DNA of 64,000 nucleotides from a bacterium. GTDB lineage: Bacteria > Zhuqueibacterota > QNDG01 > DSAB01. Below are positions 11,905-64,000 of the stretch, piece by piece. The notes under the pieces are model-generated. The model worked only from the letters and a program-made list of their open reading frames with translations, made no database searches and was not told the DNA's origin. The translations under genes and the position numbers were made by a program. The stretch is from NCBI GenBank assembly GCA_016931965.1, contig JAFGDT010000041.1:82851-146850 (forward strand). The letters are read 5' to 3'. Positions within the stretch are counted from its first letter, which is position 1; each line of letters opens with the position of its first letter.

Positions 11905-11940
11905 ATCTCACAAATCGCTTTTACAATAGATGATCTTCTT

Positions 11941-12017
11941 TTATCTTTAATCTTTAATCTTTTATCTTTAATCTTGAATCTTGTATCTTTTATCTTGAAT
12001 CATAAATCTTTACTCTT
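11941..12017. repeat. Array of degenerate 7-nt repeats between nfnA and nfnB
   Basis: Eleven consecutive in-phase heptamers of consensus TWATCTT (AAGATWA in the leftward mRNA), for example TTATCTT, TAATCTT, TAATCTT, TTATCTT, TAATCTT, GAATCTT. A T/C-rich stretch follows up to 12058. It fills most of the 155-nt gap within what should be one operon. No hairpin and no reading frame. Confidence 0.85.
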
Positions 12018-12059
12018 TTATAACTTTTTACTTTTAACTTTTACCTTTTTCCTTTTCAT

Positions 12060-15516: not shown

Positions 15517-15526
15517 CGGATACCCT

Positions 15527-17320: not shown

Positions 17321-17332
17321 ATCGATCCCCGC

Positions 17333-17779: not shown

Positions 17780-17849
17780 TGGAGACTCCTTGAACACCTA
17801 TGATCTGATACACCAACATCAATTCCGATACATGAGCGCCAAGCTCGGA

Positions 17850-44139: not shown

Positions 44140-44155
44140 ACAATCCCTATTTGAT

Positions 44156-44563
44156 TTATTTACTAAATTTTCGGTATACAGCGACAAGCACTTGTTGAGG
44201 AAGTTCATTCGCCAGTTTGGTCGGCACGTCATTCGGTCCAAACTGATCTTTTCCCTTGGGTTCAATTAAAAGTCTGATGGCTTCCATCAATCTGGCCAGA
44301 TCAATCCCTTTCGGACAGCGTGATTGACAGGTAAAACACGAAGCGCACAGATAAAGTGTTTTTGAGTGGATAACTTCATCTTGAAGTCCCATCTGCACCA
44401 TGCGAATAATTTGATTGGGGAGAAGGTCCATCTCAAATGCAAATGGACACCCTGCCGAACAGCGCCCGCACTGATAGCATTTATAGACATCCTGACCGGA
44501 GAGTTCGCTCACCCGTTCAATGAACTGTTTTTCTTCTTCTCCGATTTTTAATTTGACACGCAT
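44156..44563 (-). CDS. hdrC: Heterodisulfide reductase subunit C-like
   Basis: 135 aa. Two [4Fe-4S] motifs: CYQCGRCSAGCPFAF near residue 34 and CASCFTCQSRCPKGI near 78. Soluble, no membrane segment. Precedes hdrB by 16 nt. Confidence 0.92.
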   Translation of the reverse strand: MRVKLKIGEEEKQFIERVSELSGQDVYKCYQCGRCSAGCPFAFEMDLLPNQIIRMVQMGLQDEVIHSKTLYLCASCFTCQSRCPKGIDLARLMEAIRLLIEPKGKDQFGPNDVPTKLANELPQQVLVAVYRKFSK

Positions 44564-44616
44564 TGTGAATCTCCATTTTTAAATGGAACGTCGTTTTACG
44601 ATCAGAGAGTTGTTCC

Positions 44617-46440: not shown

Positions 46441-46485
46441 CTTCTGTCCTAAAAATAATTTTTTTGAACTCTTGCAACGATAACC

Positions 46486-46983
46486 TTATATCCTTTCAAC
46501 ATACCCCTGACAGTCACCATCTATATTAAAGGATCTGACCTGATAATCACAATCGATATTGGCCAATGTTTTAACTGCAGCCCGAAAACACCCAATTCGC
46601 GCGCAGGTTAAATTCTTAATCCGAAATCCCTGATCAATTAAAGTCTGACAGCTTTTGAGATATTTACAATTGTGAACGGTTATATCAACGCGGAAAGGGT
46701 TTACATCGACCAGTTCAAAATCACTGGCATCCTGAAAAAGCCTTCCTTCAACACCGACCTGTATATATTGTTCTACGGCAGCACGGATTGTAGCGGCTTT
46801 CTTAACCTGAATGTCGTATTCATCACCCAATACATGAAGAAAATGTTGAACAGCATGTTCGTAAGCCCTCTCACAAAACAGTTTTGGACGGGTTCCGTGA
46901 AAATCCCTCGCTGTCTCTTCTAATGCGCTCAACCAGCTGAGAGCAATCACCCATCCTGCATCTTCTTTTGGAATTTTCGCCAT
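46486..46983 (-). CDS. Unknown 165-aa cytosolic protein
   Basis: I do not recognise this gene with confidence. Start ATG 46983 has SD AAGGA. The N-terminal half is helical (DAGWVIALSWLSALEETARD). The C-terminal half has spaced Cys residues (HNCKYLKSC, LTCARIGCFRAAV, NIDCDYQVRSF, DGDC), reminiscent of small ligand-binding or ATC-hydrolase/V4R-like domains. No signal peptide. Its start abuts the ackA stop, so it is probably translated with ackA. Confidence 0.65.
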   Translation of the reverse strand: MAKIPKEDAGWVIALSWLSALEETARDFHGTRPKLFCERAYEHAVQHFLHVLGDEYDIQVKKAATIRAAVEQYIQVGVEGRLFQDASDFELVDVNPFRVDITVHNCKYLKSCQTLIDQGFRIKNLTCARIGCFRAAVKTLANIDCDYQVRSFNIDGDCQGYVERI

Positions 46984-46984
46984 T

Positions 46985-48424
46985 TTATTGATCCTTCTCA
47001 AGTGGTTTATTTTGCGTGCGGGTATTCTTTCTGAGTCCCAGGACATCAAGTTCCCGTTTTACAGTCTGTACTTGAAAATGTTTTCCCATTTTCTCACTAA
47101 GTTTTTGCGTCAAGTGAGGAATACTGGACCGTGGGTGGTTGGCCCAGAGCAGAACAAGTTCTACTTTCTCATGATCATTGAGAGCCTCAACCTCTTCGGA
47201 AACGGCCGCTTCTGGGATTGGTTTCTCGATTCCTTTTTGAATGGATTCCAAAACCTGTTTTGTATCTCTGGCGATGGCCAGTTCTTCATTGGTTGGAATG
47301 ACCAATATTTTTATCTTTCCTGTGCTGATAACCGGATTATTTTTTTTGTTCTTCTTGGGATCGATTTGAATGCCAAACGATTCCATATTACCAAGTGATT
47401 GTTCACGCACATAACTCGAATGCTCCCCAATGCCCCCTGTAAATATAATGGCATCCACTTTTCCCAGTTCAGCCATATAGGCACCGATATATTTTTTAAC
47501 GGCATGACAATAAATTTCTAAAGCCAACTGATGTTGCGCACTTCCACGTTGAGCTTCTGCTTCGATTTCACGCATGTCGTTTGAGGTTGCGGTCAAACCG
47601 AGCATACCGCTGTTTTTATTCATAATCGCATCAATTTGATCTGTGGACAGATTTTCCCGCTCCATAATAAAAGGAACAAGCGCTGGATCGATATCTCCGC
47701 ACCGCGTTCCCATAATCAAACCTTCCAGCGGTGTAAACCCCATAGAGGTATCAATCGATTTCCCGCCATCCACAGCCGTAATGCTGGCACCATTACCCAG
47801 ATGACAGGTGATGAGTTTTAAGGATTTTAAAGGGGCATTGAGGAGTACCGCGGCCCTTTCAGCAACATAACGATGGGAAGTGCCATGGAAACCGTACCGT
47901 CGAATACCCAATTTTTGATACAGAGCATAGGGCAATCCATAAATATAGGCCTTGGGTGGAAGGGTTTGATGGAATGCGGTATCGAATACGGCAACTTGAT
48001 AAATTCCGGGCAATAATTTTTCACATGCCTCAATCCCTTTTAAATTGTGGGGATTATGAAGCGGTGCGAATTGAATACACTGTTGAATGGCTCCTTTGAC
48101 CTTTTCGGTGATGAGCACCGATTCGGAAAAGGATTCGCCGCCATGAACAACCCGATGACCGATTCCGTCGATTTCATCTTGATTCCTGATCACCCCATGT
48201 TGTGGATGAAGCAACATGGCAATTAAAATATTGATTGCTTCTTGATGATTAAAGACTTCCCGGATTTCCCGAATCGTGTTCTTTTCTTTCGGCTGATAAG
48301 AAATGATAGCATCGCTCGACCCGATTTTTTCCACCATCCCCTTTGCAAGAATACTTTCCTGTCGCATGTTGATAAGCTGAAACTTAACCGAAGAACTGCC
48401 GCAATTTAGAACAAGAATTCTCAT
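46985..48424 (-). CDS. ackA: Acetate kinase with C-terminal extension
   Basis: 479 aa against about 400 in typical enzymes. Core intact: VLNCGSSSVKFQL at the N-terminus, HRVVHGGE near residue 91, AVFDTAFHQTLP near 145, HLGNGASITAVDGG near 205 and the usual end PTNEELAIARDT near 380-391. About 87 extra residues follow, including a helical stretch (VELVLLWANHPRSSIPHL, then VKRELDVLG) that looks like a small helix-turn-helix or protein-binding domain. No phosphotransacetylase gene is in the window. Lies 9 nt behind the hydrogenase large subunit. Confidence 0.9.
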   Translation of the reverse strand: MRILVLNCGSSSVKFQLINMRQESILAKGMVEKIGSSDAIISYQPKEKNTIREIREVFNHQEAINILIAMLLHPQHGVIRNQDEIDGIGHRVVHGGESFSESVLITEKVKGAIQQCIQFAPLHNPHNLKGIEACEKLLPGIYQVAVFDTAFHQTLPPKAYIYGLPYALYQKLGIRRYGFHGTSHRYVAERAAVLLNAPLKSLKLITCHLGNGASITAVDGGKSIDTSMGFTPLEGLIMGTRCGDIDPALVPFIMERENLSTDQIDAIMNKNSGMLGLTATSNDMREIEAEAQRGSAQHQLALEIYCHAVKKYIGAYMAELGKVDAIIFTGGIGEHSSYVREQSLGNMESFGIQIDPKKNKKNNPVISTGKIKILVIPTNEELAIARDTKQVLESIQKGIEKPIPEAAVSEEVEALNDHEKVELVLLWANHPRSSIPHLTQKLSEKMGKHFQVQTVKRELDVLGLRKNTRTQNKPLEKDQ

Positions 48425-48433
48425 CTCTGTTTT

Positions 48434-49894
48434 TTAGTCTCTCCTGAGTTTCTGGATCAACTGATGCTGATGGTCAAAGATATGGATGATCAACGGCATC
48501 TGCCCGGGCAAAGTATGCGTTGCACACCCAAAACAGGGATCATAAGCACGAAAAGCCATTTCCACCATATTGAGAAGACCATCATTCACCTCGCCGTTTT
48601 GAATCAATCCCTGGGCTGCCTTTTTTACGGACATATTGATGGGAGCATTGTTATTCGTTGTACCGACAATCAGATTGGCTTCCTGTATGATGCCATCTGC
48701 ATCCGTCTTGTAGTGATGGTAAAGGGTGCCCCGTGGAGCCTCAACAACACCCACCCCTTCATCTGGTACATCTGTGGGAATCATACGATAGTCCGGACCT
48801 GTGATTTCGGGATCACTGACCAGTTCGACCCACCTTTCTGCAGCATAGAGCAGTTCAATAATACGGGCCCAATGCGTCGCCAGAGTCTGGTGTACGGGTT
48901 TCCCTCCCAATGTTTTGTACATGCGATCATGTTCTTCATTGGCGAGGGGTGTTGCCATACCATCAGACACATTGAGCCGTGAAAGCGGTGTAGCCTTGTA
49001 TACACCGCTCTCCGGCCCATCAACAAAACCTTTCCATCCAACTTTCTTCAGAAAGGGGAATTTGAGGTAGGACCAGGATTCAACATGCTCTTCAACATGA
49101 TTGAGATAATCAGCCGGTTTGAATTTGACAAATTCTTTTCCGTCAGGTCCAACCACGCGGATATCCCCATCATAAAAATTAACGTGATTATTCTCATCGA
49201 CCAAGCCCATGTTATAGGTTTCATGGGTGAATGTATCACTCAGGATCAGATCAACATACGCTTTATTTTTGAGGACGATATCATTAAAAAGCTGGATGGT
49301 AAATTTGGCAAACTCGACGGCTTCCAACCCCGCTTTTTTAATTTCTTCCTGTTCTTCTTCGATCATCCCTTTGCTCATACCGCCGGGAATCGCACCCACA
49401 GGATGGACTGCTTTACCCCCCATTTTTTTGATCAATTCGTGGCACATTCCTCTCAGACCAACAACCTTGCCTCCAATCTCTACGCCGACCTTATGAATAA
49501 TTCCCAGAATGTTTCGTTGCGCTTTTGGCGCATCAGGTCCCATGACAAAATCGGGCCCGGCGAGAGCATAAAAGTGTGTGGTGTGATCGGTTACATAAAA
49601 GATAGAATAGAGCAGTTCACGCAGCATCTTGGCTGTTCGCGGAATATCCATATGATACAATGCGTCGCAAGCTTTTGCTGAGGCCATCATGTGGGCTTCC
49701 GGACATACACCGCAAATACGTGGTGTGATGCGAGGCATCTCCTCGACGGGACGCCCCCTGCAGAACATTTCGAATCCCCTCAATTCGGGAACCTGCAGAT
49801 AGGCATCTTTTACATTACCTCCATCATCCAAAAATATTTCTATTTTACCATGTCCTTCGAGCCGGGTTATGGGATCTATTGTGACTTTCTTCAT
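48434..49894 (-). CDS. mvhA: [NiFe] hydrogenase large subunit (group 3, MvhA-like)
   Basis: 486 aa. Both nickel-binding motifs are present: RICGVCPEAH near residue 59 and DPCFGCATH near residue 450. About 25 residues follow the second motif, the tail expected to be cut by a maturation protease such as the one at 17850. No membrane anchor and no Tat signal on the small subunit, so a cytosolic H2-oxidising (or evolving) enzyme. Start overlaps the small subunit stop by one base. Confidence 0.92.
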   Translation of the reverse strand: MKKVTIDPITRLEGHGKIEIFLDDGGNVKDAYLQVPELRGFEMFCRGRPVEEMPRITPRICGVCPEAHMMASAKACDALYHMDIPRTAKMLRELLYSIFYVTDHTTHFYALAGPDFVMGPDAPKAQRNILGIIHKVGVEIGGKVVGLRGMCHELIKKMGGKAVHPVGAIPGGMSKGMIEEEQEEIKKAGLEAVEFAKFTIQLFNDIVLKNKAYVDLILSDTFTHETYNMGLVDENNHVNFYDGDIRVVGPDGKEFVKFKPADYLNHVEEHVESWSYLKFPFLKKVGWKGFVDGPESGVYKATPLSRLNVSDGMATPLANEEHDRMYKTLGGKPVHQTLATHWARIIELLYAAERWVELVSDPEITGPDYRMIPTDVPDEGVGVVEAPRGTLYHHYKTDADGIIQEANLIVGTTNNNAPINMSVKKAAQGLIQNGEVNDGLLNMVEMAFRAYDPCFGCATHTLPGQMPLIIHIFDHQHQLIQKLRRD

Positions 49895-50850
49895 TAAATC
49901 TTTCTCCCTAAAATGGAACTCGGTAAATTGAACCGATAAAAAGTGCCGACAGGATCGACAATTTGGCCGACAATTTCTTCAATTTCCTCTGGATCATCGC
50001 TGTCGACAATGGAAGCAATGGCTCCCGCCAATTTTCCCCCCATATCGGATATACCTTCAGCCGGCCCATAACATCCTCTGCATCCCAAATGGACCTGAGG
50101 ACAGAGAGCACCGCAGCCGGCCTGCGTGGCCGGCCCATTACAGATAATCCCTTGTTCGAGCAGACACTTCTCGGGATCGATGTTCTTGATCATATGCGGC
50201 CGTATAAACGCTTTCACCCGCTTTTCCTCTTTGGTCTTAGGACATTCATCACAAACCGTTTTCGGATTGATACCGATGACGGATCCTTTCTCCGGTAAAT
50301 TCCCTGAAAGAATGGCTTCAATAACGGCCCATATCTGCTCTGCAACCGGCGGACATCCCGGCATTTTATAATCAACATCCACAACTTGATTTAATGTTCT
50401 GACATAATCAAACATTGCAGGCAATGTCAGTTTACCAGACTTGACCTTGGTTTCAGTTTGGGGTACTATTTTCTCAGGATTTCTAACCGAGGGTGAATCG
50501 TGATAGACATATTGAAAAATGGCTTCTTTATTCGTTAAATTAGCCAAACCGGGGATGCAACCTTCGCTTGCACAGGATCCATAAGCGACAAGGATCTTGG
50601 ATTTCTTTCTCAGCAATTCTGCAATATGAAGATTTTCCTCATTACGGATAACACCATTAAAAAGACAGACATCGATCTCTTTATCCGACATGGCCTCAAC
50701 ATCTTGATATTTTGTATCCATAACACAGGGACAAAATACCAAATCAACTGCTCTATCAACATCTAAAATTTTTTCTCTGATATCCAGAAAAGCAATTTCA
50801 CATCCTCCACAACTACCGGCCCAATAGATAGCAAATTTTGGTTTGGCCAT
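49894..50850 (-). CDS. mvhG: [NiFe] hydrogenase small subunit (MvhG-like)
   Basis: 318 aa. Proximal cluster Cys in YWAGSCGGCEIAF near residue 12, YGSCASEGCIPG near 90 and PGCPP near 165. Further Cys (CDECPKT, CLLEQGIICNGP, CGALCPQVHLGCRGCYGP) bind the medial and distal clusters. No signal peptide. First gene of the long leftward transcript. Confidence 0.92.
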   Translation of the reverse strand: MAKPKFAIYWAGSCGGCEIAFLDIREKILDVDRAVDLVFCPCVMDTKYQDVEAMSDKEIDVCLFNGVIRNEENLHIAELLRKKSKILVAYGSCASEGCIPGLANLTNKEAIFQYVYHDSPSVRNPEKIVPQTETKVKSGKLTLPAMFDYVRTLNQVVDVDYKMPGCPPVAEQIWAVIEAILSGNLPEKGSVIGINPKTVCDECPKTKEEKRVKAFIRPHMIKNIDPEKCLLEQGIICNGPATQAGCGALCPQVHLGCRGCYGPAEGISDMGGKLAGAIASIVDSDDPEEIEEIVGQIVDPVGTFYRFNLPSSILGRKI

Positions 50851-52604: not shown

Positions 52605-54053
52605 ATGAAAACCATTCTCATAGAAAAAGTCCTTCCACTGTCAGTCCCAGCAACTGTTTCACTCATTGGCTTCGTTTTCCTTTCCTGGTGGATCACTACG
52701 GATCCTGTAAAGCACCTGAATGAAAGCATCCCGGGGATGGACAACCGTTCGGCAGAAATGGCTGGATCCTCGGAAACCGTTATTTTCGATGCCTACTTTG
52801 AGCTTTTTGAGGGAGTGCCTGCTGAAAACAGTTTAGGTTCATGGCCCCGTTTCAGAGGCCGTTATTTTGACAACATCAGCAGAGAAGAAACCGAGATTCC
52901 GGATAGCTGGGGTGAAACCGGACCGACAATTGTATGGTCGCAGGACTTGGGCGAGGGGTTTGCGGCTCCTGTTGCTGCCAACGGCCGTGTCTACATTCTG
53001 GATTACGATGAAGAAAGAAAAATGGACATGCTGCGCTGTTTTTCATTGGCGGACGGAAAAGAAATCTGGAGGAGGGGATACGAGATCCACATTAAACGGA
53101 ACCACGGCATGTCTCGGACCATACCCGCGGTTGGGAATGACGTCGTCGTCACCATCGGCCCCCTGGGGCAAGTGATGTGTGTAAATGCGGAAACAGGCGA
53201 TTTCCTGTGGGGCATTGATCTGCATAAAGAATACGAAGCTGAAATCCCCTTATGGTATACCGGCCAATGTCCCCTGATCGATGATTCAATGGTTGTGGTT
53301 GCGCCCGGGGGTAAAGCGCTTATGATTGGTATCGATTGTAAAACAGGAGACGTTATTTGGGAAACACCAAATCAAAACAACTGGAAGATGTCCCATTCGT
53401 CCATCATGCCGATGACGTTCGCAAATACAAAGATGTACGTCTATCCAGCCATCGGTGGAATCGTCGGCGTGTCGGCAGAAGGAGAGACCCTCGGCAGCAT
53501 TCTCTGGGAAACAGCCGTTTGGAGCCCCCAGGTGATCGCACCGGCACCGCTCGTTCTGGATGATGGGAAAATCTTTTTTTCGGCCAGTTACGGAGCCGGA
53601 AGCGCGATGCTGCAAGTGGTCAAGGAGGGAGAACAATTCACCGTGGACACACTGGGGACCTACACACCCAAAGAGGGATTTTCAACCGAACAGCAAACAC
53701 CGATTTATTATCAGGGATACCTCTTCGGGATTCTGCCGAAAGATGCGGGTGCTTTGCGGACTGAATTCGCCTGTTACCATCCGGACGATCTGACCCAGCT
53801 GGTCTGGTCCAGCGGTAAAGAAAACCGTTTTGGTCTGGGCCCCTTTATCCTGGCCGACGGGAAATTTTTCATCCTCGACGACGTAGGCGTCTTAACGGTT
53901 GCGGAAGCCAATACGCGGGCATACAATCAGCTGGCTCAGTATAAAATTTTAGATGGGCAGGATTCCTGGGGTCCGATGGCCATAGTCAATGGCAGACTCC
54001 TTCTTCGGGATTCAAAGAAGATGGTCTGTATCGATCTCAACGCATCCTCGTAA
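52605..54053 (+). CDS. Membrane-anchored PQQ-type beta-propeller protein
   Basis: 482 aa. One N-terminal hydrophobic segment (about residues 11-31) with a following acidic region suggests an export/anchor sequence. The propeller starts at SWPRFRG near residue 79 and shows PQQ-type blades (DGKEIWRRG, ETGDFLWGID, KTGDVIWETP). No heme motif, and the catalytic acid/Ca-binding residues of quinoprotein dehydrogenases cannot be recognised, so it may be structural (BamB-like) rather than a PQQ enzyme. First gene of the + operon. No clear SD before the ATG. Confidence 0.8.
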   Translation: MKTILIEKVLPLSVPATVSLIGFVFLSWWITTDPVKHLNESIPGMDNRSAEMAGSSETVIFDAYFELFEGVPAENSLGSWPRFRGRYFDNISREETEIPDSWGETGPTIVWSQDLGEGFAAPVAANGRVYILDYDEERKMDMLRCFSLADGKEIWRRGYEIHIKRNHGMSRTIPAVGNDVVVTIGPLGQVMCVNAETGDFLWGIDLHKEYEAEIPLWYTGQCPLIDDSMVVVAPGGKALMIGIDCKTGDVIWETPNQNNWKMSHSSIMPMTFANTKMYVYPAIGGIVGVSAEGETLGSILWETAVWSPQVIAPAPLVLDDGKIFFSASYGAGSAMLQVVKEGEQFTVDTLGTYTPKEGFSTEQQTPIYYQGYLFGILPKDAGALRTEFACYHPDDLTQLVWSSGKENRFGLGPFILADGKFFILDDVGVLTVAEANTRAYNQLAQYKILDGQDSWGPMAIVNGRLLLRDSKKMVCIDLNASS

Positions 54054-54070
54054 CAATAGGAATAAAGAAT

Positions 54071-55120
54071 ATGGAAAAACATGAAAAAAAATCAACCATC
54101 AGTCGAAGAAATTTCTTCGATAAAACGGCCAGGAAACTGACTGCCTTTGCAACAGGAATGGGTGCAGGTTTATTGTTGAAACGGTCTCGATCAGGATTCA
54201 GCTCTCAAGCTGCCGTAAAACCCAAATCCCAAACACAGCAACAAAATCCATATGAATACAATATTGATGATTTAAAAAAAGTCGATTCCGCACTCATCAC
54301 CTATCAAGAAATCGATCAGAACCACATCGATCTGGGTGAACTCCGCGGTCTGACAGTGGATTCTGACGACAACCTCTTTGTCACCGGAGACACCGTCATA
54401 CTGGGTTTCGATAAGACAGGCAACCGCATTAAAAAAATAGATCTGAATAGTCCTGCATACGGATTGACAATCGACAGTAACAATCAATTCTATCTCTGTA
54501 TGAAAGACCATGTCGAAATCATGGACGAAAACGGATTACAGGTCGAGGAGATGCACAGCCTCGGAGAACAGGCCTATCTGACATCAATCGCTCTGTCCGA
54601 TCAATACATTTATATGGCCGATGCGGGGAATCGGGCCGTATGGCAGTTCAGCAAATCGGGTATGTTGCTGAAACGTTTCGGAGAAAAAAATCCCGAACAG
54701 GGGATTCCCGGCCTGGTGATTCCCAGCCCTTACATGGATGTGGCTGTCGATGACAGCGGGGATATTTGGGTGGCCAACACGGGACGGCATTCTCTTGAAA
54801 AATACAATGCGAAAGGAGAATTGATCACCCGATGGGGAACAGCCTCCATGCGGATTGAATACTTTTGCGGATGCTGCAATCCCACCCATTTTGCCCTTCT
54901 CCATGACGGCTCCTTTGTCACCAGCGAAAAAGGGCTCCCCAGAGTCAAAATTTATAACAAAGAGGGTGCATTTCAAACAGTTGTGGCTGAACCGGCTCAG
55001 TTCGATGAAGGCACAGTCGGGCTTGACTTGGCTGTCGATTCGCAAAACCGCATCTACGTGCTTGATCCAAAAAGAAAATCCGTGCGTATCTTCTCTCAAA
55101 TGGCGTTATCCTTAGAATAG
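54071..55120 (+). CDS. Tat-exported NHL-type beta-propeller protein
   Basis: 349 aa. Twin-arginine signal ISRRNFFDK near residue 11 followed by a hydrophobic stretch. NHL-like blades (LRGLTVDSDDNLFVTG, YMADAGNRAVWQFS, VAVDDSGDIWVANTGRHSL). A Cys cluster FCGCCNPTHFALL near residue 263 followed by SEKGLPRVKIYN is a recognisable conserved feature of this family and may bind metal or form a disulfide. Exported folded, consistent with a cofactor acquired in the cytoplasm. 17 nt behind the first propeller. Confidence 0.82.
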   Translation: MEKHEKKSTISRRNFFDKTARKLTAFATGMGAGLLLKRSRSGFSSQAAVKPKSQTQQQNPYEYNIDDLKKVDSALITYQEIDQNHIDLGELRGLTVDSDDNLFVTGDTVILGFDKTGNRIKKIDLNSPAYGLTIDSNNQFYLCMKDHVEIMDENGLQVEEMHSLGEQAYLTSIALSDQYIYMADAGNRAVWQFSKSGMLLKRFGEKNPEQGIPGLVIPSPYMDVAVDDSGDIWVANTGRHSLEKYNAKGELITRWGTASMRIEYFCGCCNPTHFALLHDGSFVTSEKGLPRVKIYNKEGAFQTVVAEPAQFDEGTVGLDLAVDSQNRIYVLDPKRKSVRIFSQMALSLE

Positions 55121-55130
55121 GAAGCAGAAT

Positions 55131-55379
55131 ATGAAACCAAAACAGATCTGCAGACGCACCTTCATAAAAAAGACAACGCCCTATCTCTTTTTCACCGCCG
55201 TAATTGTGGCTCCCGGTTTGATCACCCTGAAAAATCACAATAAAAAGGGGACAGAACAGACGAATGGTTCGTCAAGTCCGTGTCTCACCTGTTCATGGCT
55301 CTCTGAATGCGACCTGCCGGAAGCAGTTCATCTCAAACAAAAATCGGCAGCAATCACTGAAAATCCAACGGTGAAATAA
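55131..55379 (+). CDS. Small Tat-type Cys-containing protein
   Basis: 82 aa, unrecognised. N-terminus CRRTFIKK followed by a hydrophobic helix (residues about 17-32) looks like a Tat signal or anchor. The short exported part carries three Cys (CLTCSWLSEC near residues 50-59). It sits between two other Tat substrates with 10- and 12-nt gaps, so it is probably a real subunit of the same system rather than a spurious frame. Confidence 0.6.
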   Translation: MKPKQICRRTFIKKTTPYLFFTAVIVAPGLITLKNHNKKGTEQTNGSSSPCLTCSWLSECDLPEAVHLKQKSAAITENPTVK

Positions 55380-55391
55380 AAGGTTTAAAAG

Positions 55392-55958
55392 ATGAAAAAA
55401 GAAAACGACAAAAAAATAGATCGACGTCAATTTTTCCGGAGTGGCACCCGGACAGCGGTGATTGTGGGTTTGGGCGGGCTGACGGCCCATGCGGCAAATC
55501 AGGCGACGGCAAAAGACACAGTATGGCAGATCGATCCCAATCTTTGTGTCCAATGCGAACAGTGCGCTGAAAATTGTGTTTTGTCACCTTCTGCTGTGAA
55601 ATGTGTGCACATCTACGATATGTGCGGCTACTGCGACCTCTGCAGCGGTTATTTTGAACCCAACACAGATGAACTCAACACAGGGGCGGAAAATCAGCTC
55701 TGTCCCACAAGTGCGATCACAAGAACATTCATCGAAGATCCCTATTTCAAATACGATATCGACGAAGAGAAATGCATCGGATGCGGGAAATGTGTCAAGG
55801 GATGCGGTGCATTCGGTAACGGTTCTCTGCAGCTTCAGGTGCGGCACGACCGATGTGTCAACTGCAACCAGTGTGCCATCGCCATCGCCTGCCCGGCGGA
55901 TGCGTTTCGACGGGTTCCCGCAGATCATCCCTATCTGTTGAGGGGCTATGATATCTGA
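55392..55958 (+). CDS. Tat-exported polyferredoxin (NapG/NrfC-like)
   Basis: 188 aa. Tat motif DRRQFFRSG near residue 10, then Ala-rich cleavage region. Cys residues for about four [4Fe-4S] clusters: CVQCEQCAENC, CGYCDLC with a later C-P, CIGCGKCVKGC, and CVNCNQCAIAIACP. Periplasmic electron carrier expected to dock on the NapH/NosR-like membrane protein encoded next, with which it overlaps by 11 nt. Confidence 0.87.
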   Translation: MKKENDKKIDRRQFFRSGTRTAVIVGLGGLTAHAANQATAKDTVWQIDPNLCVQCEQCAENCVLSPSAVKCVHIYDMCGYCDLCSGYFEPNTDELNTGAENQLCPTSAITRTFIEDPYFKYDIDEEKCIGCGKCVKGCGAFGNGSLQLQVRHDRCVNCNQCAIAIACPADAFRRVPADHPYLLRGYDI

Positions 55959-57270
55959 TCTGATAAGACACGACCAAATTACCAGAAAATGGACTGTGGT
56001 TCTTTTACTCTCTATTTTGGTCTGCTCAATTCCCACGCAAATCCATTCACAAATCCAACGATTTCCCAAACCGGAATTTGAATCCGGCCATGTGGTTCCC
56101 ACACCCACAACGCCCCATCCCCGCCAGGATATTTACGAATACATTGATGTGGCTGTGCTGATCATCGCTCTGTCAACGGCTTCCTATCTGGCATTGAAAA
56201 AAAGATCCCGCAACGGGATTTTCATGCTGAGCCTCTTTTCCCTGCTCTATTTCGGTTCCTGGAGAAAAGGCTGTGTCTGCGCGATTGGATCCATACAGAA
56301 CATCTCTCTGGCCCTGTTTGACCGGACCTATGTGATTCCGATCACGGTCATTGCATTTTTCACGATTCCCCTGTTATTTACATTATTCTTCGGACGCACG
56401 TTTTGTGCGGCGGTCTGTCCTCTGGGAGCCATTCAGGACGTGGTGATCCTGAAACCGGTAAAAGTGGCAGCCTGGCTCCAGAAAGTACTCGGTTTCATCC
56501 CCCACATTTACCTCGGTTTGGCCGTTCTCCTGGCTGCTTATGGAGCCGATTTTATCATCTGCCGCTACGATCCGTTTGTCGGACTGTTTCGATTTGATGC
56601 CAGTTTTCTCATGCTCCTGTTTGGGGCCGTTTTATTGATTGGCGGTATCTTCGTCGCCCGTCCTTATTGCCGATTTCTCTGCCCCTACGGGTTGATTTTA
56701 AACTGGATATCCCGCTTATCAAAACATCACGTGACCATTACCCCGACCGATTGTATCCAGTGCCGGCTGTGCGAGGATTCCTGTCCGTTCGGGGCCATTC
56801 TGCCGCCGACACCTGAAAAAGCGCCGGAAGCGCGCTCCGTGGAACACAAGCGCTTGGCCATTTTACTTGCACTATTACCTGTTCTCATAATCGGAGGAGC
56901 CTGTCTGGGATCCCTCCTTCACACACCCCTTTCCCAGATACACAACACCGTTCAGCTGGCCGAAAGGGTCAGGCTTGAAGAGCTGGGTAAAATTCAGGAT
57001 ACTGTAATAGAGAGCGAAACATTCCAACAGTCGGGCAAACCGGTGGAACAACTGTACGGTGAAGCAGCTTTAATCAAAAATCGATTCATAAAGGGCAGCA
57101 CCTATTTGGGGGGATTTATCGGATTGGTGTTCGGCACGACGCTCATCGGTCTTTCAATAAGAAGAAAACGTCGAGATTATACTCCTGATCGGGGAACCTG
57201 TCTCAGTTGCGGACGCTGTTTTGCCTACTGCCCTGTCGGTAAAAAGGAATCAAAAGAAGATGAAAAATGA
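55948..57270 (+). CDS. NapH/NosR-like membrane iron-sulfur protein
   Basis: 440 aa. Cleavable-looking N-terminal segment, then about six to seven membrane helices. Conserved paired motifs CAAVCPLGAIQD near residue 152 and CRFLCPYGLIL near 240, plus CVCAIG near 110. Two ferredoxin-type clusters: CIQCRLCEDSCPFGA near 270 and CLSCGRCFAYCPVGK near 420 at the C-terminus. No FMN-binding domain of full NosR. Expected to move electrons across or along the membrane between quinol or cytosolic donor and the exported ferredoxin. Overlaps the next gene by 11 nt. Confidence 0.85.
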   Translation: MISDLIRHDQITRKWTVVLLLSILVCSIPTQIHSQIQRFPKPEFESGHVVPTPTTPHPRQDIYEYIDVAVLIIALSTASYLALKKRSRNGIFMLSLFSLLYFGSWRKGCVCAIGSIQNISLALFDRTYVIPITVIAFFTIPLLFTLFFGRTFCAAVCPLGAIQDVVILKPVKVAAWLQKVLGFIPHIYLGLAVLLAAYGADFIICRYDPFVGLFRFDASFLMLLFGAVLLIGGIFVARPYCRFLCPYGLILNWISRLSKHHVTITPTDCIQCRLCEDSCPFGAILPPTPEKAPEARSVEHKRLAILLALLPVLIIGGACLGSLLHTPLSQIHNTVQLAERVRLEELGKIQDTVIESETFQQSGKPVEQLYGEAALIKNRFIKGSTYLGGFIGLVFGTTLIGLSIRRKRRDYTPDRGTCLSCGRCFAYCPVGKKESKEDEK

Positions 57271-59005
57271 GCAGGAAAACATGAATCAAAAATCAGAAGA
57301 AACAAGGGATCGGAAAAAATTTGGATATCAAATTGCCCGGTCTGTGGCCGTGGTCTCGGGAATCTTCATGCTGATTTTCTCGATCCTCGTCCTGGCCAAT
57401 TATTTTCAAACCAAGACAACGGATCCCCTGAACAGCCCGGCTCTGGAAACATTGATGGGCCAGATGGAGGAGAGACCGGACGATCAGGCATTGAAAGAAC
57501 AGATCCGGGCACTGGATTTATTAGCCAGAAAAGCCTACTTTACAACCCAATGGCAGATCCGGACTGGAGGCTATCTGATCTTCGGCAGTTTTATTGTCTT
57601 CATCGTTTCACTGAGAATCATGGGACATATGAAATCCAAATTGCCCGTTGTCGGAGAAAAACCGGTGAATGTGTGGGAATCGGCTGGGTTGACCAGAAAA
57701 CGGATGGCTATTACCGGTTTTTCGATGGCCATCATCTCGATTCTCATCGTGATCCTTTCCCACAGTGAACTGGAAGAAATCCAATTCCGCATTGATGAAG
57801 TCATGGACGAGGCGGGATTAACCGATTCGGCATATCCGAACGATGAAATACTGCGCCAGAATTGGCCCGGTTTCCGGGGACCCTACGGTACAGGCATCGC
57901 CTCGTTTGACAATGTGCCGACAGAGTGGGATGGGCCGAGCGGACAAAATGTGCTTTGGAAAACCGAAATACCGCTTCATGGGATGAATTCCCCGATCCGA
58001 TGGGACAACCGGTTGTTTGTTTCAGGAGCCGATGAAACGCGGCGTCAGGTCTACTGTTATGATACGGATACCAGTGAAATGCTATGGCAGAGAGATGTTT
58101 TGGATGTCCCGGGATCGACAGACGAAATTCCCGAAGTATCCTATGACACCGGTTATGCGGCTCCCACGATGACGACAGACGGAGAACGTGTATTTGCCAT
58201 CTTCGCAAATGGGGATCTGGTCTGTTTCGACTTCGAGGGAAATCAGATCTGGGCGATCAGTCTCGGTATCCCACAAAACATTTATGGTTATTCCTCTTCT
58301 TTAATCATCTATCAGAATCGGCTCATTGTCCTTTTTGATCAGGAAACGGGTGGTTATCTTTACGCATTTAACACCCAATCAGGCAGAATGGAGTGGCAAA
58401 CATCCCGTGAAAACATGATGACCTGGGCCTCCCCTATTTGTGTCAACACAGGAAACCGGTTCGAAATCATTATTAATGCCAATCCGGCAGTCGCATCATA
58501 CGATCCGTCCACTGGCAGAGTATTATGGTCTATCGAAGGCATGACCGTAGACGCAGCCCCCTCGGTTGCCTATGCGGACGGATGGGCTTATGCCGTAAAC
58601 GAATATGCTTTTCTGTGGGCGATCAAACTCGAAGATCCGCCCCAGATCGGATGGGAAAACATTGACTACCTCTCCGAAATTTCAAGCCCCGTAGCCAATG
58701 AAAAATTTCTTTTCGTTGCCACCAGTTATGGAGATCTCATCTGCTTTGACGCAAAAACGGGAGATCGGTACTGGGTCGAAAGCTTCGATCATGGATTCTA
58801 CTCCTCCCCTATTCTGGTGCAAGACAAAGTCTATGTCATGGATTACGAGGGTGTAATGCAAATCTGTTATGCCGATGTGGAATACAGACCGATCAGTCAT
58901 CTGGAACTCGGTGAAGCTTCATTTTGTATTCCCGCCTTCGACGACAACCGGATTTTCATCCGCGGCGACACCCATCTTTACTGTATCGGTCATGAGGATG
59001 AATAA
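57260..59005 (+). CDS. PQQ-type beta-propeller with three N-terminal membrane helices
   Basis: 581 aa from ATG 57260 (an ATG at 57281 is also possible). Three hydrophobic helices near residues 26-48, 103-120 and 155-175, then a propeller beginning NWPGFRGPYGTGIAS near 202. Blades show DTSEMLWQRD, QSGRMEWQTS, STGRVLWSIEG and KTGDRYWVES. It therefore looks like a propeller held at the outer face of the inner membrane. Central gene of the operon, between the NapH-like protein and the NuoEF fusion. Confidence 0.82.
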   Translation: MKNEQENMNQKSEETRDRKKFGYQIARSVAVVSGIFMLIFSILVLANYFQTKTTDPLNSPALETLMGQMEERPDDQALKEQIRALDLLARKAYFTTQWQIRTGGYLIFGSFIVFIVSLRIMGHMKSKLPVVGEKPVNVWESAGLTRKRMAITGFSMAIISILIVILSHSELEEIQFRIDEVMDEAGLTDSAYPNDEILRQNWPGFRGPYGTGIASFDNVPTEWDGPSGQNVLWKTEIPLHGMNSPIRWDNRLFVSGADETRRQVYCYDTDTSEMLWQRDVLDVPGSTDEIPEVSYDTGYAAPTMTTDGERVFAIFANGDLVCFDFEGNQIWAISLGIPQNIYGYSSSLIIYQNRLIVLFDQETGGYLYAFNTQSGRMEWQTSRENMMTWASPICVNTGNRFEIIINANPAVASYDPSTGRVLWSIEGMTVDAAPSVAYADGWAYAVNEYAFLWAIKLEDPPQIGWENIDYLSEISSPVANEKFLFVATSYGDLICFDAKTGDRYWVESFDHGFYSSPILVQDKVYVMDYEGVMQICYADVEYRPISHLELGEASFCIPAFDDNRIFIRGDTHLYCIGHEDE

Positions 59006-59009
59006 CGCG

Positions 59010-61379
59010 ATGGATACCGACTCCAAAACAAGTGAATTGAATCTCGACGAATTGGACGATATCGTCGAGAAAATCGGGCACTCAAAAGAGCATGTCATCC
59101 CGATTCTCCAGGCCATTCAGAACCGCTACAACTACCTGCCTCAGGGAATGCTGCATCGGGTCTGTGAAATCACCGATATTACACCCGCAGATATCGTGGG
59201 CATATCCACATTCTACTCACAGTTCAGACATGTCCCGGTCGGTAAACACATCATCCGAATTTGTACGGGAACAGCCTGCCATGTGAAAGGGGCTGATCGG
59301 GTATATGATGCATTCATGCGCCATTTGCACATTGCAGAAAACCAGGATACCGATCCAGACGGTCTTTTTACACTGGAAAAGGTGGCCTGTCTCGGGTGCT
59401 GCACGATTGCCCCGGTCATTCAAATCAGCGGGGTTACCTACGGGCATCTGACACCGGATGGTGTTTCTGATGTCATCAAAGACTTTCTCGAACAGGAACA
59501 AACCGGTCAACAACCGCTGAAGAAGGGTAAGAAGCAGGTTGACGAGCAGTTGGGAGAAATGCGGATCGGATTGGGATCCTGTTGTGTGGCCAGCGGATCG
59601 GCCAAAATTCATCAGACTTTACTCGATTCGTTGGCCCAATCCAATGTCAACGTGAAGGTAAAACGGGTTGGGTGTGTGGGTATGTGCCACCAGGTTCCAC
59701 TCCTGGAAGTCAATATGCCCGGGCAGCCGGTTGCACATTATTCACACCTTCAGCAAGAGACCATTCAAAAAATCATTGATAAGCATATCAAACCGAAACA
59801 GTTTCGGAAGCGCATTCAAAACACCGTTTCCCGGTGGTTAGACAATCTCCTCACCGATGAAACATGGCAATCCGCAGCCAAGTATGCAATCGATTTCAGG
59901 GACCCCCCTGTTGCCGCATTTTTGGATCAGCAAAAACACATTGCCACGGAACATTACGGCACACTTGATCCACTGGACATGGATGAGTACAAAAAAGGAG
60001 ATGGTTTCAAAGCACTCGAAGACTGTCTTCACCGATCCTCTCCGGAAAAGATCATTGCATCCATCAGGCAAAGCGGGCTGAGAGGCCGCGGAGGGGGTGG
60101 CTTCCCGACAGGCCAAAAATGGGAGAGGGTTCATAAATCTTCAGGCAGCCAGAAATACATCATCTGCAACGGAGACGAGGGGGATCCCGGTGCTTTCATG
60201 GACAGGATGCTCTTGGAATCCTATCCCTTCCGCATCATTGAGGGGATGGCGATCGCGGCATTCGCCGTCGGGGCTTCTGAGGGTGTTTTTTATATCCGGG
60301 CCGAGTATCCCCTTGCCTTACAACGAATCAGAGAAGCCCTCCGTCAATGTCGAGAATTCGGACTGCTCGGGGAAAATATTCTGGGTAGTGGCTTTTCATT
60401 GAACCTCCGGATCATGGAGGGAGCCGGTGCATTTGTTTGTGGAGAAGAAACAGCCCTCATTGCATCGATAGAAGGCAAGCGCGGAATGCCGCGCATCCGT
60501 CCTCCTTACCCTGCCGAAGCGGGACTTTGGGGAGCTCCGACTCTGGTCAACAATGTAGAAACCTATGCTCAGGTCTCCTGGATCATGCGAAACGGTCCGG
60601 ATGCATTTGCCCAGATCGGCACTAAAAAGAGCAAAGGGACCAAAGTCTTTGCGCTTGCAGGTAAAATTGCCAGGGGCGGATTGATTGAAGTCCCTATGGG
60701 GATGACAATCCGGGAAATTGTCAACGATATTGGTGGCGGAATTGCGGGCGGAAAGCAGTTTAAAGCCATCCAAATCGGAGGACCCTCAGGGGGCTGCATA
60801 CCGGCACATCTGGCGGATACACCCATCGATTTCGAAGCGCTGCTCGATGTAGGCGCCATGATGGGTTCGGGAGGCCTCGTTGTTCTGGACGAATCGGATT
60901 GCATGGTTGATATCGCCCGCTATTTCCTGAGTTTCACGCAGGCCCAGTCGTGCGGCAAATGCACATTCTGTCGTGTCGGCACACGCCGCATGCTTGACAT
61001 TCTCGACCGGCTCTGTACAGGACATGGTCAAAAAGACGACGTGGACAAACTGGAGCATTTGGCCCACAAAGTCCGCCAGGGCAGTCTCTGCGGTCTGGGA
61101 AGAACAGCGCCGAATCCGGTGCTGACAACGATCAAATATTTCAGGGACGAATATGAAGCCCACATTGAAGGTAAATGTCCGGCAAAAAAATGTACGTCCC
61201 TCATCACCTATACCATCAACGACAATTGCATCGGCTGCACGAAATGCGCCCAGCATTGCCCCGTCGGTGCCATCCCCATGACGCCTTACGAAAAACATGT
61301 GATCGACAATGAAAAATGCACCCGGTGCGATACCTGCCGGAAAATCTGTGAATTTGATGCGGTTGACATAGAATCATAG
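59010..61379 (+). CDS. Fused NuoE-NuoF NADH-oxidising subunit
   Basis: 789 aa. Residues about 1-165 are a NuoE domain (CTGTACHVKGA, then ACLGCCTIAPV). About 185-260 is a second thioredoxin-like [2Fe-2S] domain (GSCCVASGSAK, then VGCVGMCHQVP). Then the NuoF core ([42 protein letters not shown]), SCGKCTFCRVG, and a C-terminal double ferredoxin (CIGCTKCAQHCPVGA, CTRCDTCRKICEF). Start ATG 59010 lies 4 nt past the previous stop; longer readings would overlap it heavily. Independent of the split NuoE/NuoF genes at 15527-17779. Should oxidise or reduce NAD(H) in the cytosol. Confidence 0.9.
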   Translation: MDTDSKTSELNLDELDDIVEKIGHSKEHVIPILQAIQNRYNYLPQGMLHRVCEITDITPADIVGISTFYSQFRHVPVGKHIIRICTGTACHVKGADRVYDAFMRHLHIAENQDTDPDGLFTLEKVACLGCCTIAPVIQISGVTYGHLTPDGVSDVIKDFLEQEQTGQQPLKKGKKQVDEQLGEMRIGLGSCCVASGSAKIHQTLLDSLAQSNVNVKVKRVGCVGMCHQVPLLEVNMPGQPVAHYSHLQQETIQKIIDKHIKPKQFRKRIQNTVSRWLDNLLTDETWQSAAKYAIDFRDPPVAAFLDQQKHIATEHYGTLDPLDMDEYKKGDGFKALEDCLHRSSPEKIIASIRQSGLRGRGGGGFPTGQKWERVHKSSGSQKYIICNGDEGDPGAFMDRMLLESYPFRIIEGMAIAAFAVGASEGVFYIRAEYPLALQRIREALRQCREFGLLGENILGSGFSLNLRIMEGAGAFVCGEETALIASIEGKRGMPRIRPPYPAEAGLWGAPTLVNNVETYAQVSWIMRNGPDAFAQIGTKKSKGTKVFALAGKIARGGLIEVPMGMTIREIVNDIGGGIAGGKQFKAIQIGGPSGGCIPAHLADTPIDFEALLDVGAMMGSGGLVVLDESDCMVDIARYFLSFTQAQSCGKCTFCRVGTRRMLDILDRLCTGHGQKDDVDKLEHLAHKVRQGSLCGLGRTAPNPVLTTIKYFRDEYEAHIEGKCPAKKCTSLITYTINDNCIGCTKCAQHCPVGAIPMTPYEKHVIDNEKCTRCDTCRKICEFDAVDIES

Positions 61380-61403
61380 ACAATCGACCGAAGAGTCTGG
61401 AAA

Positions 61404-62987
61404 ATGATCAATCTGAAAATAAACGGAAAACCGGTTCACATCACAGAGGGAAGTACCCTACTCCAGGCAGCCGAAAAACTGGGAATAGAGATCCCCACCC
61501 TCTGTCACCTGAACGGTTACGCACATTTTACATCATGCATGATCTGCATGGTCTGGGACAAAAAATCTGGTTCGTTTCATCCCGCCTGTTCGAAGCGGGC
61601 AGAAGAAGGGATGGATATTGAGACCGATTCGGATGAAGTGCGCTGGATCAGAAAAGAGACACTGGATCTGCTCCTCAGCGAGCACGTGGGCGACTGCGAG
61701 GCTCCCTGTCACCGTGTCTGCCCCGCCCACATGAACATTCCACTGATGATCCGACAAATCCAGAAAAGAGAATATCGAGACGCCTTAATCACCGTGAAGC
61801 AGGACATCCCGCTCCCGGCGGTCCTGGGGCGCATCTGTCCGGCGCCGTGTGAAAAAATCTGTAACCGGTCGCAAGTGGATACTCCCGTTCAGATCTGTCT
61901 GTTGAAAAGATATGTGGCCGATGTCGATCTGGCCAACAAAAATCCATACATGCCTGAAATAAAAAAATCGAGGAAGAAAAAAGTGGCCGTTATCGGATCG
62001 GGACCCGCCGGCCTGACAGCGGCTTACTATCTTCTCATCGAAGGTTACCAGTGTGTTTTGTTCGATGACCATCCGAAACCGGGCGGCATGCTCCAGTACG
62101 GCGTTCCCGAAGAAAACCTGCCCCGTTCTGTCTTGGATGCGGAAATCGATATCATACGCAAAATGGGCGCCGCATTCGAGCTCAACACAAAAGTGGATCG
62201 ATCTCTCTGGCAGAATACGATCACCAAAAAATATGATGCCGTCATTCTGGCAACTGGTCAGATTGATCCGAAATCAGCCCAAGACTGGGGCATCAGGGTA
62301 TCTGAAAAAGGCATCTGGATCAACAATCAGACTTTTGAAACCAGTGTACGGGGCGTTTTTGCCGGCGGCAACGCAGTCCGGTCGGGACAGATGGCCGTCA
62401 GGGCGGTCGCGCATGGCAAAGCGATTGCATACTCGGTACACCAATATTTACACAAGAAGGAAGTCGCCGGCCCGCCAAAACGATTCAATTCGCAAATCGG
62501 TAAAATGAGCGAGAAAGAAGCAAAGGGCCTGCTTCAGGAAACAGAAATCCTTTCTGATGAATCAATCGAAGTCAACACACAAACTGGACTTTCAGAATCA
62601 CAGGCTGGTCAGGAATCGAATCGCTGTCTCCACTGTGACTGCCGGAAACCGGAAACCTGCAAACTCAGGATCTATGCCGATCAATACGGTGCGGAACAAA
62701 AACGCTACCAGACAAGCGAAAGAAAAACCGTGGAGAGAATTCTGCAGCACGAGACCGTTGTTTATGAACCGGGGAAATGCATCAAATGCGGACGCTGTGT
62801 CCGTATCACGCAAAAGGCGGGCGAAAGCCTCGGCCTGACATTCACCGGACGGGGATTCAATGTGCGGATCGATGTGCCTTTTAACGATTCCCTCTCAAAG
62901 GCGCTTCTGAAAACAGCGGAAGCATGCGTGGAGGCCTGCCCGACAGCTGCGCTGGCTTTCAAAAATACGGAAGAGGAACAACGATGA
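61404..62987 (+). CDS. NuoG/GltD-like Fe-S flavoprotein without an NAD(P)H domain
   Basis: 527 aa. N-terminal [2Fe-2S] domain (LCHLNGYAHFTSCMIC, then ACSK), GltD-type cluster region (CEAPCHRVCPA, CPAPCEKICN), FAD motif VIGSGPAGLTAAYYLL near residue 195, and FAGGNAVRSGQMAVRA near 315. C-terminal Cys sets (CLHCDCRKPETC, CIKCGRC, CVEACP). In GltD/NfnB a GGGNVAMD NAD(P)H-binding domain of more than 100 residues lies between the ILATG and FAGG motifs; here only about 35 residues connect them. So it has FAD but no pyridine nucleotide site of its own, and would depend on the NuoEF fusion upstream (24-nt gap). Confidence 0.83.
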   Translation: MINLKINGKPVHITEGSTLLQAAEKLGIEIPTLCHLNGYAHFTSCMICMVWDKKSGSFHPACSKRAEEGMDIETDSDEVRWIRKETLDLLLSEHVGDCEAPCHRVCPAHMNIPLMIRQIQKREYRDALITVKQDIPLPAVLGRICPAPCEKICNRSQVDTPVQICLLKRYVADVDLANKNPYMPEIKKSRKKKVAVIGSGPAGLTAAYYLLIEGYQCVLFDDHPKPGGMLQYGVPEENLPRSVLDAEIDIIRKMGAAFELNTKVDRSLWQNTITKKYDAVILATGQIDPKSAQDWGIRVSEKGIWINNQTFETSVRGVFAGGNAVRSGQMAVRAVAHGKAIAYSVHQYLHKKEVAGPPKRFNSQIGKMSEKEAKGLLQETEILSDESIEVNTQTGLSESQAGQESNRCLHCDCRKPETCKLRIYADQYGAEQKRYQTSERKTVERILQHETVVYEPGKCIKCGRCVRITQKAGESLGLTFTGRGFNVRIDVPFNDSLSKALLKTAEACVEACPTAALAFKNTEEEQR

Positions 62988-64000
62988 AAACGGCTTTCAT
63001 GAAACAAATCGCTCTTGGCACAATGATCATCATGGGGATGATGTGCATCACATGTCAAAAAAGCAAAGAGGAACTCGCTCTTCAAGCCCCAGAAACTGGG
63101 GAATCCGAATGGCCGATATTCCGGGGAGACACCCGGCTCTCCGGTGTATCCAATGCCACCCTGTCCGATTCGCTCCGACTGCGCTGGACATTTCAAACGG
63201 AGGGTGAAATTAAATCCTCCGTTGTGATTGAGAACAGTACCGCTTATTTTGGATCGAGTGACGGCAATATCTATGCCTGCCGACTGGACAATGGCACTTG
63301 GGTATGGACTTTCAAAACCAATGGGGATGTGGAAGCAGCGCCGTTGCTGCTGGATGAAACCATTTATGTCGGATCATTAGACGGCACATTTTATGCGATT
63401 GACGCAATCAACGGAAGAGCAAAATGGAAGTACCAGACAGAGGGACAGATCACCGGTTCGGCCAACTGGTTCCCATCCAAAGACGGCCAGAAAAAATATG
63501 TTGTTTTCGGAAGCTACGACAACTTATTGCACTGTGTGGACAGTCAGACAGGTGTAAAAAAATGGACGTTCGAAACGGCAAGCTACATCAATGGATCTCC
63601 GGGTATTTTCGAGGAGAAAATTGTATTCGGTGGATGCGACGAACTGGTCCACACCGTTGAAGGCCAGTCCGGGGAAGAGATCGGTGCAGTTGATGTGGGA
63701 TCCTACGTCGCTGGTTCGGTAGCCGTCTCGGACCATTATGCATTTATGGGACATTACGATGCCAAGTTGGTCTGCGTGGATTTGGAAAAGGAACAAATCA
63801 AATGGGAATACGGCAATGAAGAGTCGGGTGACGCATTCTTTTCATCACCCGCAGTTGGAGAAAATGTGGTTGTCATTGGATCGAGAGACGGATCGGTCCA
63901 TTGTGTTGAGAAAGCATCAGGCCGGGGAATATGGCAATTTCGCACGAGACAAAACGTGGACAGTTCACCGGTGATATGCAACGGCCGGGTAATTGCGGGT
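62984..64000 (+). CDS. Exported PQQ-type beta-propeller protein (3' end outside window)
   Basis: At least 339 aa, truncated by the window edge. N-terminal hydrophobic signal (about residues 8-22) ending at a Cys (CITCQKS) that could be a lipoprotein site, although the lipobox is not canonical. Propeller from EWPIFRGDTRLSG near residue 43, with blades DNGTWVWTFKT, INGRAKWKYQTEG, QTGVKKWTFET and SGRGIWQFRT. BamB-like. Start overlaps the upstream stop (ATGA), so it belongs to the same operon. Confidence 0.82.
   Translation, partial: MKTAFMKQIALGTMIIMGMMCITCQKSKEELALQAPETGESEWPIFRGDTRLSGVSNATLSDSLRLRWTFQTEGEIKSSVVIENSTAYFGSSDGNIYACRLDNGTWVWTFKTNGDVEAAPLLLDETIYVGSLDGTFYAIDAINGRAKWKYQTEGQITGSANWFPSKDGQKKYVVFGSYDNLLHCVDSQTGVKKWTFETASYINGSPGIFEEKIVFGGCDELVHTVEGQSGEEIGAVDVGSYVAGSVAVSDHYAFMGHYDAKLVCVDLEKEQIKWEYGNEESGDAFFSSPAVGENVVVIGSRDGSVHCVEKASGRGIWQFRTRQNVDSSPVICNGRVIAG

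Follow-up and report, generated by a model that had tools for sequence, protein, structure and literature searches.

A nine-gene cluster lies at the right-hand end of a 64,000-nucleotide stretch of bacterial DNA, referred to here as the window (positions 82851-146850 of contig JAFGDT010000041.1, a contig of 149783 bases in assembly GCA_016931965.1). As far as the open-licence literature shows, this cluster is a previously undescribed variant of the Bfu kind of electron-bifurcating enzyme: it combines genes for a cytosolic Bfu-type core with those for a membrane protein resembling NapH and NosR, a ferredoxin carrying a twin-arginine translocation (Tat) motif, called TatFd, and four beta-propellers. 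We propose, with moderate confidence, that the products form a membrane-spanning redox complex in which electrons from NADH and ferredoxin come together and flow outward to a reductase in the periplasm, propeller 1. The cluster is thus a candidate Bfu member that would exchange electrons with the periplasm along an explicit and testable path. If this is true, KSB1, Aminicenantes, Planctomycetota, Lentisphaerota and many Bacteroidota would possess a cytochrome-free electron sink or source outside the cytoplasm, and propellers devoid of pyrroloquinoline quinone (PQQ) would acquire a redox role.

The nine genes are consecutive on the + strand and encode, in order, propeller 1, an NHL propeller, an 82-amino-acid exported protein, TatFd, the NapH-like protein, propeller 2, a BfuC-BfuB fusion, BfuA and propeller 3, with successive gaps of 17, 10, 12, -11, -11, 4, 24 and -4 nt. 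A preliminary description of the window, made from the letters alone, had reported nine such genes with gaps of -11 to +24 nt, and all are present as claimed. It had also supposed that no cytochrome c is involved, and indeed the heme-c motif CxxCH occurs in none of the window proteins.

The cytosolic core

The gene at 59010-61379 (+), described earlier as a NuoE-NuoF fusion, encodes, by its sequence, BfuC and BfuB in one chain, which together make up the core of the electron-bifurcating Bfu family. The BfuC domain (PF01257, 175.8 bits) is fused at the N-terminal side of BfuB, whose PF01512, PF10589 and Fer4 domains (155.7, 113.3 and 29.6 bits) all score above cut-off; the SLBB domain (PF10531) is in its expected place but reaches 22.4 bits for a cut-off of 27. 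The nearest solved relatives are NfnB of T. sibiricus (9n5u, 743 bits), 9bov, Stn (8oh5) and NiFe-HydB (7t2r), whereas NuoF of complex I gives at most 373 bits, and BfuB aligns over its full length to 9n5u_B and 8oh5_B. The FMN and NADH sites are recognisable, as are the ligands of clusters C1 and B1 to B5.

The Bfu family is defined by a BfuBC core with six clusters, among which a histidine ligand of B2 is diagnostic: non-bifurcating homologues are devoid of it, and also of the B3, B4 and B5 clusters (Schut et al. 2022, PMC9304861). We located this histidine through the printed alignment to 7t2r, numbering residues along the reading frame from 59004. The B2 ligands H720, C633, C725 and C730 are each present in 59 out of 59 orthologues, while the fourth cysteine position varies (Cys 33, Thr 9, Arg 9, Ser 4, Lys 4; n = 59). 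Ligands of B1, B3, B4, B5 and C1 are kept in at least 55 of the 59 sequences, those of C1 in 58 to 59. In a tree, a fully supported branch sets the BfuB of the cluster apart from 25 further NuoF/BfuB proteins belonging to the phylum, among which is that of the formate dehydrogenase locus in this window. As in the rest of the family, ferredoxin would be expected among the substrates of such a core. The domains named in the preliminary description are confirmed, but the bifurcating type of the core, with its invariant B2 histidine, had gone unrecognised.

The next gene (61404-62987, +) had been called a GltD-like flavoprotein, a designation that stands except for one overlooked loss. Its product is a BfuA of the Nfn/Stn type, with Fer2_4 (57.6 bits), Fer4_20 (68.9 bits) and Fer4_Nqo3 (28.7 bits) domains and conserved cysteines. 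In 8oh5 and 9bov, the Nfn-type BfuA can be aligned with it on either side of some 130-140 missing residues, a gap which lies between residues 286 and 278 of the two aligned halves and falls at the position of the NADP(H)-binding domain. Between the motifs that flank this gap there are only 10-40 residues (median 32), and the domain is absent in 58/58 aligned orthologues. The FAD motif GxGxxG and its acidic ribose ligand are kept; at the position after the second FAD motif, where Asp is the norm, 47/58 have Asn or Ser. An Nfn/GltD-type flavoprotein encoded elsewhere in the window (10504-11904, -), in contrast, matches the full Pyr_redox_2 profile and has an intact NAD(P)H-binding domain.

Having no such domain, BfuA is not expected to use NADP(H) as third substrate, and its electrons must be exchanged with some other partner. 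Within the operon, only the NapH-like protein and TatFd are constant enough to qualify, and these probably take the place of NADPH.

Among known systems, the nearest are the Nfn-Bfu and Stn enzymes of the HydABC-like Bfu family (9n5u, 9bov, 8oh5; PMC9304861). The domain order of BfuB and BfuC, the cluster ligands, the B2 histidine, the [2Fe-2S] and 4Fe-4S clusters of BfuA and its Nfn-type FAD motif are common to both. The present cluster differs in the fusion of BfuC to BfuB, in the domain lost from BfuA, and in having a NapH-like membrane protein, a Tat ferredoxin and propellers as constant partners. The text of the paper that defined the family names no propeller, PQQ or NapH, and leaves 17 BfuB clades without an assigned function (PMC9304861). 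The cluster had been presented as matching no named system, and no published description of it was found in the open-licence literature, nor any annotation of it as a known complex.

Putative membrane relay, exported proteins and propellers

The polytopic membrane protein (55948-57270, +) had been credited with the paired CxxxCP motifs of NapH and NosR, and these are seen as FCxxVCP and CRFxCP, with a Fer4_5 match (PF12801) of 51.9 bits for a cut-off of 22. Two 4Fe-4S motifs are also present, one of them an extra C-terminal motif on the cytosolic side. The curated cut-offs are far from reached, however (NapH TIGR02163, 51.9 bits for 213; NosR NF046105, 34.9 for 1000). From hydropathy and charge, C109, C111 and C205, together with a loop of about 60 residues, would be outside, and both CX3CP and both 4Fe-4S motifs inside. 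The three outer cysteines and those of the CX3CP and 4Fe-4S motifs are conserved in the alignment.

TatFd (55392-55958, +) has 16 conserved cysteines, enough for the four [4Fe-4S] clusters expected earlier, and an RR motif in 87% of orthologues. The 82-amino-acid protein (55131-55379, +) has an RR-type N-terminus, as had been noticed, and four cysteines in a conserved pattern. It has no match in Pfam or NCBIfam, but it is a real component, because a counterpart with the four-Cys pattern is found in 73/86 related loci.

NapH-like proteins have been proposed as transmembrane electron relays (Meheust et al., PMC8238504), and flavinylation clusters containing them have been described, some of which also encode a nitrite reductase or ExaA, an ethanol oxidase (PMC8238504). 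Like the NapGH, NosR and PceC relays (PMC8238504), ours associates a polytopic protein bearing paired CX3CP motifs (Fer4_5) with an adjacent Tat ferredoxin. It departs from them in its scores below cut-off, its additional C-terminal motif, its three outer-face cysteines and its pairing with a Bfu core, and also in having neither an FMN domain nor a flavinylation motif: no FMN_bind match was obtained in the cluster, and the ApbE target motif D.[ST]GA[ST] is in no core orthologue.

Four propellers had been announced, and profile matches identify three as PQQ_2/BamB-type and one as NHL. The three PQQ_2 propellers indeed share an opening WPxFRG motif (SWPRFRG, NWPGFRG and EWPIFRG). Propeller 1 (52605-54053, +) has an N-terminal membrane anchor, and propeller 2 (57260-59005, +) has N-terminal transmembrane segments. 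Propeller 3, of PQQ_2/ACSF4 type and exported, starts at 62984 (+) and runs past the window end at 64000, for 390 amino acids in total. The six-bladed NHL propeller (54071-55120, +) has the invariant motif FxGCCNP, just before a strand, with vicinal Cys268-Cys269. Its Tat-type N-terminus, on which the preliminary description had based its export, is present in this genome, but an RR motif is found in only 13% of orthologues.

Structure prediction gave confident models for the NHL propeller (AlphaFold, predicted local distance difference test score 95.5) and for propeller 1 (93.6), which has eight blades as counted by hand from the strand list. The cofactor of quinoproteins sits on the face of the blade-connecting loops. 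In propeller 1, the eight such (D-A) loops, also assigned by hand from the strand list, contain 39 invariants in 121 positions, against 35 in 249 elsewhere (p 8.5e-5). They include K164, R165, N166, H167, S170, R171, T172, W217, Q221, C222, N256, H264, S266, E362, Q363, Q364, T365, R408, D453 and W455, and the motifs KRNHGxSRT, WYTGQCP and EQQTP mark the pocket. The model suggests an enzyme-like central pocket, with invariants gathered in the central loops.

PQQ itself is unlikely as a cofactor of these propellers. The PQQ-enzyme model TIGR03075 (cut-off 480 bits) gives 29.4 bits for propeller 2, 60.1 for propeller 3 and no match for propeller 1, and PqqC is above cut-off in 0/14 carriers, in a search run without a positive control and for a cofactor that can be imported. 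The cluster has PQQ_2-type propellers and a nearby NapH-like protein in common with the clusters of PQQ-dependent dehydrogenases such as ExaA, but its propellers stay far below the cut-off of the models for these enzymes. The fold neighbours of propeller 1 are tetrathionate hydrolase (7cqy, 6l8a; template modelling score about 0.70 by query length) and BamB (0.60-0.64), the nearest by E-value. They have a PQQ-like fold without PQQ, and are 14-18% identical to propeller 1.

Distribution of the cluster

Orthologues of the NapH-like protein were found in 14 other genomes (79 searched), at 50-60% identity and E < 1e-130, and the gene order there is the same as in the window, as far as the contigs reach. 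A scan with the TatFd alignment, using one genome per species, returned 377 related stretches. The best 80 of these come from about 15 phyla, mostly as metagenome-assembled genomes; by the record titles as submitted, they include Bacteroidota, KSB1, Calditrichota, Marinimicrobia, Latescibacterota, Sumerlaeota, Aminicenantes, Acidobacteriota, Verrucomicrobiota, Lentisphaerota, Planctomycetota, Armatimonadota, Poribacteria and Spirochaetales. Marinifilum, Ancylomarina and Perlabentimonas are cultured named genera that carry the cluster.

Counting only the loci with enough flank to show the partner, TatFd is accompanied by the NHL propeller in 69/71, propeller 1 in 55/60, the NapH-like protein in 68/68, propeller 2 in 59/59, the BfuC-BfuB fusion in 49/51 and BfuA in 40/44. 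Propeller 3 follows BfuA in 36/42 loci and is absent in six, Planctomycetota among them. In one locus (L103), the stretch from propeller 2 to BfuA contains no intact fusion frame, and the frame of BfuA itself reaches further upstream; this apparent loss is probably an assembly frameshift. Because the same order recurs in about 15 phyla, well beyond close relatives, the arrangement is far from chance.

Co-occurrence across genomes, suggested earlier as a check, leads to the same picture. In the window's phylum (82 genomes), TatFd is present in 18 and the NHL propeller in 17, all 17 shared; in the order of Marinifilum (149 genomes), the figures are 25 and 24, all 24 shared. Every one of the 41 NHL-positive genomes among the 231 surveyed therefore has the Tat ferredoxin. 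Pairwise distances correlate between subunits (rho 0.52-0.87), although some correlation is expected from common descent alone. Median identity among orthologues is 0.59 for the BfuC-BfuB fusion, 0.54 for propeller 1 and 0.43 for propeller 2. In a tree of the NapH-like protein, 41 Bacteroidota form one clade, and the others are mixed among phyla with modest support. No copy of the NapH-like gene was found on plasmids.

To the right of the window the operon continues with at least three more genes, which encode a GT4 glycosyltransferase, a 180-amino-acid Cys-containing membrane protein and an ABC ATPase; the contig ends 147 nt after the last of these. In relatives, an FtsX permease of about 1100 amino acids is encoded downstream of the ATPase. 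The 180-amino-acid protein (L003:1535-2077, between the glycosyltransferase and ABC genes) has four helices and the cysteine motifs CPYCHYYGTRGCPCGYG and CAECPQKDQC, and has no match in Pfam. Clustering of the unlabelled neighbours, in search of a conserved terminal oxidoreductase in the flanks, yielded only the FtsX permease and sporadic genes.

Other variations were observed around or inside the cluster. One to five extra PQQ_2 propellers are encoded within 9 kb upstream of TatFd in 37 of the 46 loci with enough flank, and the window genome has a LysR regulator at the place of these genes. In a KSB1 genome, two genes are inserted inside the cluster (L029:6619-8754 and 10693-13161), encoding a 711-amino-acid protein, by eye a TonB-type receptor, and an 822-amino-acid one, by eye a glycogen phosphorylase. 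In another locus, four additional genes separate the NapH-like gene from propeller 2 (L033:6287-9773). By eye they resembled Nos genes, which raised the question of a link with Nos-type copper transport, but they encode an ABC transporter of NMT1 type and a PD40 propeller. No riboswitch or other RNA was detected in the window or in seven related loci.

Proposed electron path and metabolic setting

The preliminary description had imagined a transmembrane conduit from cytosolic NADH, and perhaps ferredoxin, to the exported propellers. Anatomy, conserved synteny and co-occurrence support such a conduit, while electron flow and direction are a matter of interpretation. From gene content, synteny, co-occurrence, cluster ligands, the domain deletion and the predicted propeller folds, we infer complex formation, an order of carriers, an outward direction, the kind of substrate and a catalytic role for propeller 1, as follows. 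In the cytosol, the fused BfuC-BfuB would take electrons from NADH and, by family analogy, from reduced ferredoxin, and merge them (confurcation). The merged electrons would leave through BfuA, which has kept its Fe-S clusters and an FAD motif, and pass to the C-terminal cluster that the NapH-like protein has on its cytosolic side. Cysteine sites at the inner and outer faces of this protein would then pass them across the membrane to TatFd. The NHL propeller, with its CC pair, and the small Cys protein may be further carriers or docking parts, and the electrons would end in the conserved pocket at the centre of propeller 1, which is anchored in the membrane and would act as the reductase of a periplasmic substrate. 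Propeller 1 is the likely end point because its conservation comes close to that of the redox subunits and its invariants gather in the central loops.

Several points weigh against this proposal. Its direction relies on a thermodynamic argument, propeller 1 could be a scaffold, the CC pair of the NHL propeller could be structural, and one B2 ligand position is occupied by Arg or Lys in 13/59 sequences. It is possible, if rather doubtful, that the cluster represents a new respiratory-like class of enzymes, spread over many phyla of bacteria that are for the most part uncultured, in which a confurcating NADH/ferredoxin core, with the help of the membrane potential, drives a very-low-potential reduction in the periplasm at an active site of a new kind, located in a PQQ-free propeller; we go no further because this idea rests on the role proposed for propeller 1.

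The question arises as to whether electrons could flow the other way. Propeller 1, which belongs to the fold class of quinoprotein dehydrogenases, would then dehydrogenate a low-potential periplasmic substrate, for example an aldose or a compound at the aldehyde level, and electrons would enter via TatFd and the NapH-like protein to be bifurcated by the Bfu core to NAD+ and ferredoxin. Bfu enzymes are reversible (PMC9304861), and the company that NapH-like proteins keep with the quinoprotein oxidase ExaA (PMC8238504) would suit such a scheme. However, electrons would have to move inward against the membrane potential and reach the potential of NAD+ and ferredoxin, which few periplasmic substrates could achieve; PqqC is missing from the 14 carriers, subject to the limit given above, and no other known dehydrogenase cofactor is at hand. 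We consider reverse flow unlikely, and the outward direction is favoured because inward flow to the ferredoxin potential opposes the membrane potential.

Two other scenarios keep part of the anatomy but change the end point. TatFd might reduce the vicinal cysteines of the NHL propeller, in a reaction like that of ferredoxin-dependent disulfide reductases, or else a metal centre; the PQQ_2 propellers would be scaffolds or clients, and the glycosyltransferase, ABC and FtsX genes would help envelope maturation. The invariant FxGCCNP, the small four-Cys protein, the BamB-like fold of propeller 1 and these downstream genes are consistent with this scheme. Yet propeller 3, which precedes the glycosyltransferase and ABC genes, is missing in some loci, those of Planctomycetota included, so that this module appears accessory, and the conservation of propeller 1 exceeds what a scaffold would lead one to expect. 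Periplasmic thiol or metal reduction is, in our opinion, improbable. The part of menaquinone was also considered: the NapH-like protein would act as NapH supposedly does, without a direct path from NADH to the periplasm, and either the Bfu core would reduce quinone or quinol would feed TatFd and the propellers. Quinone is a proposed third substrate of Nuo-Bfu (PMC9304861). Nevertheless, the protein falls far short of the NapH and NosR cut-offs, the additional cytosolic 4Fe-4S motif suits a cytosolic protein partner, and an enzyme that only linked the cytosol to quinone would leave the constant periplasmic parts unexplained. This last scenario seems to us very improbable.

Elsewhere in the window, a 607-amino-acid protein (44617-46440, -) matches the HEAT-repeat phycobilin lyase models NblB and CpcE at scores below their cut-offs. 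Beyond the cluster, the window also carries other enzymes of low potential. At 12856-17797 (-) are genes for a NuoF/BfuB, a NuoE/BfuC and a formate dehydrogenase alpha subunit whose N-terminus is of NuoG type; they probably form an Fdh-Bfu, which would make a second Bfu module, 40 kb away from the cluster. The region 41237-50850 (-) brings together HdrA2, a CCG-domain protein, acetate kinase and a [NiFe] hydrogenase of Vhu/Mvh type, and a 2-oxoacid:ferredoxin oxidoreductase is also encoded in the window. These low-potential enzymes, together with the Nfn-type protein at 10504-11904, are consistent with a metabolism run on NADH and ferredoxin.

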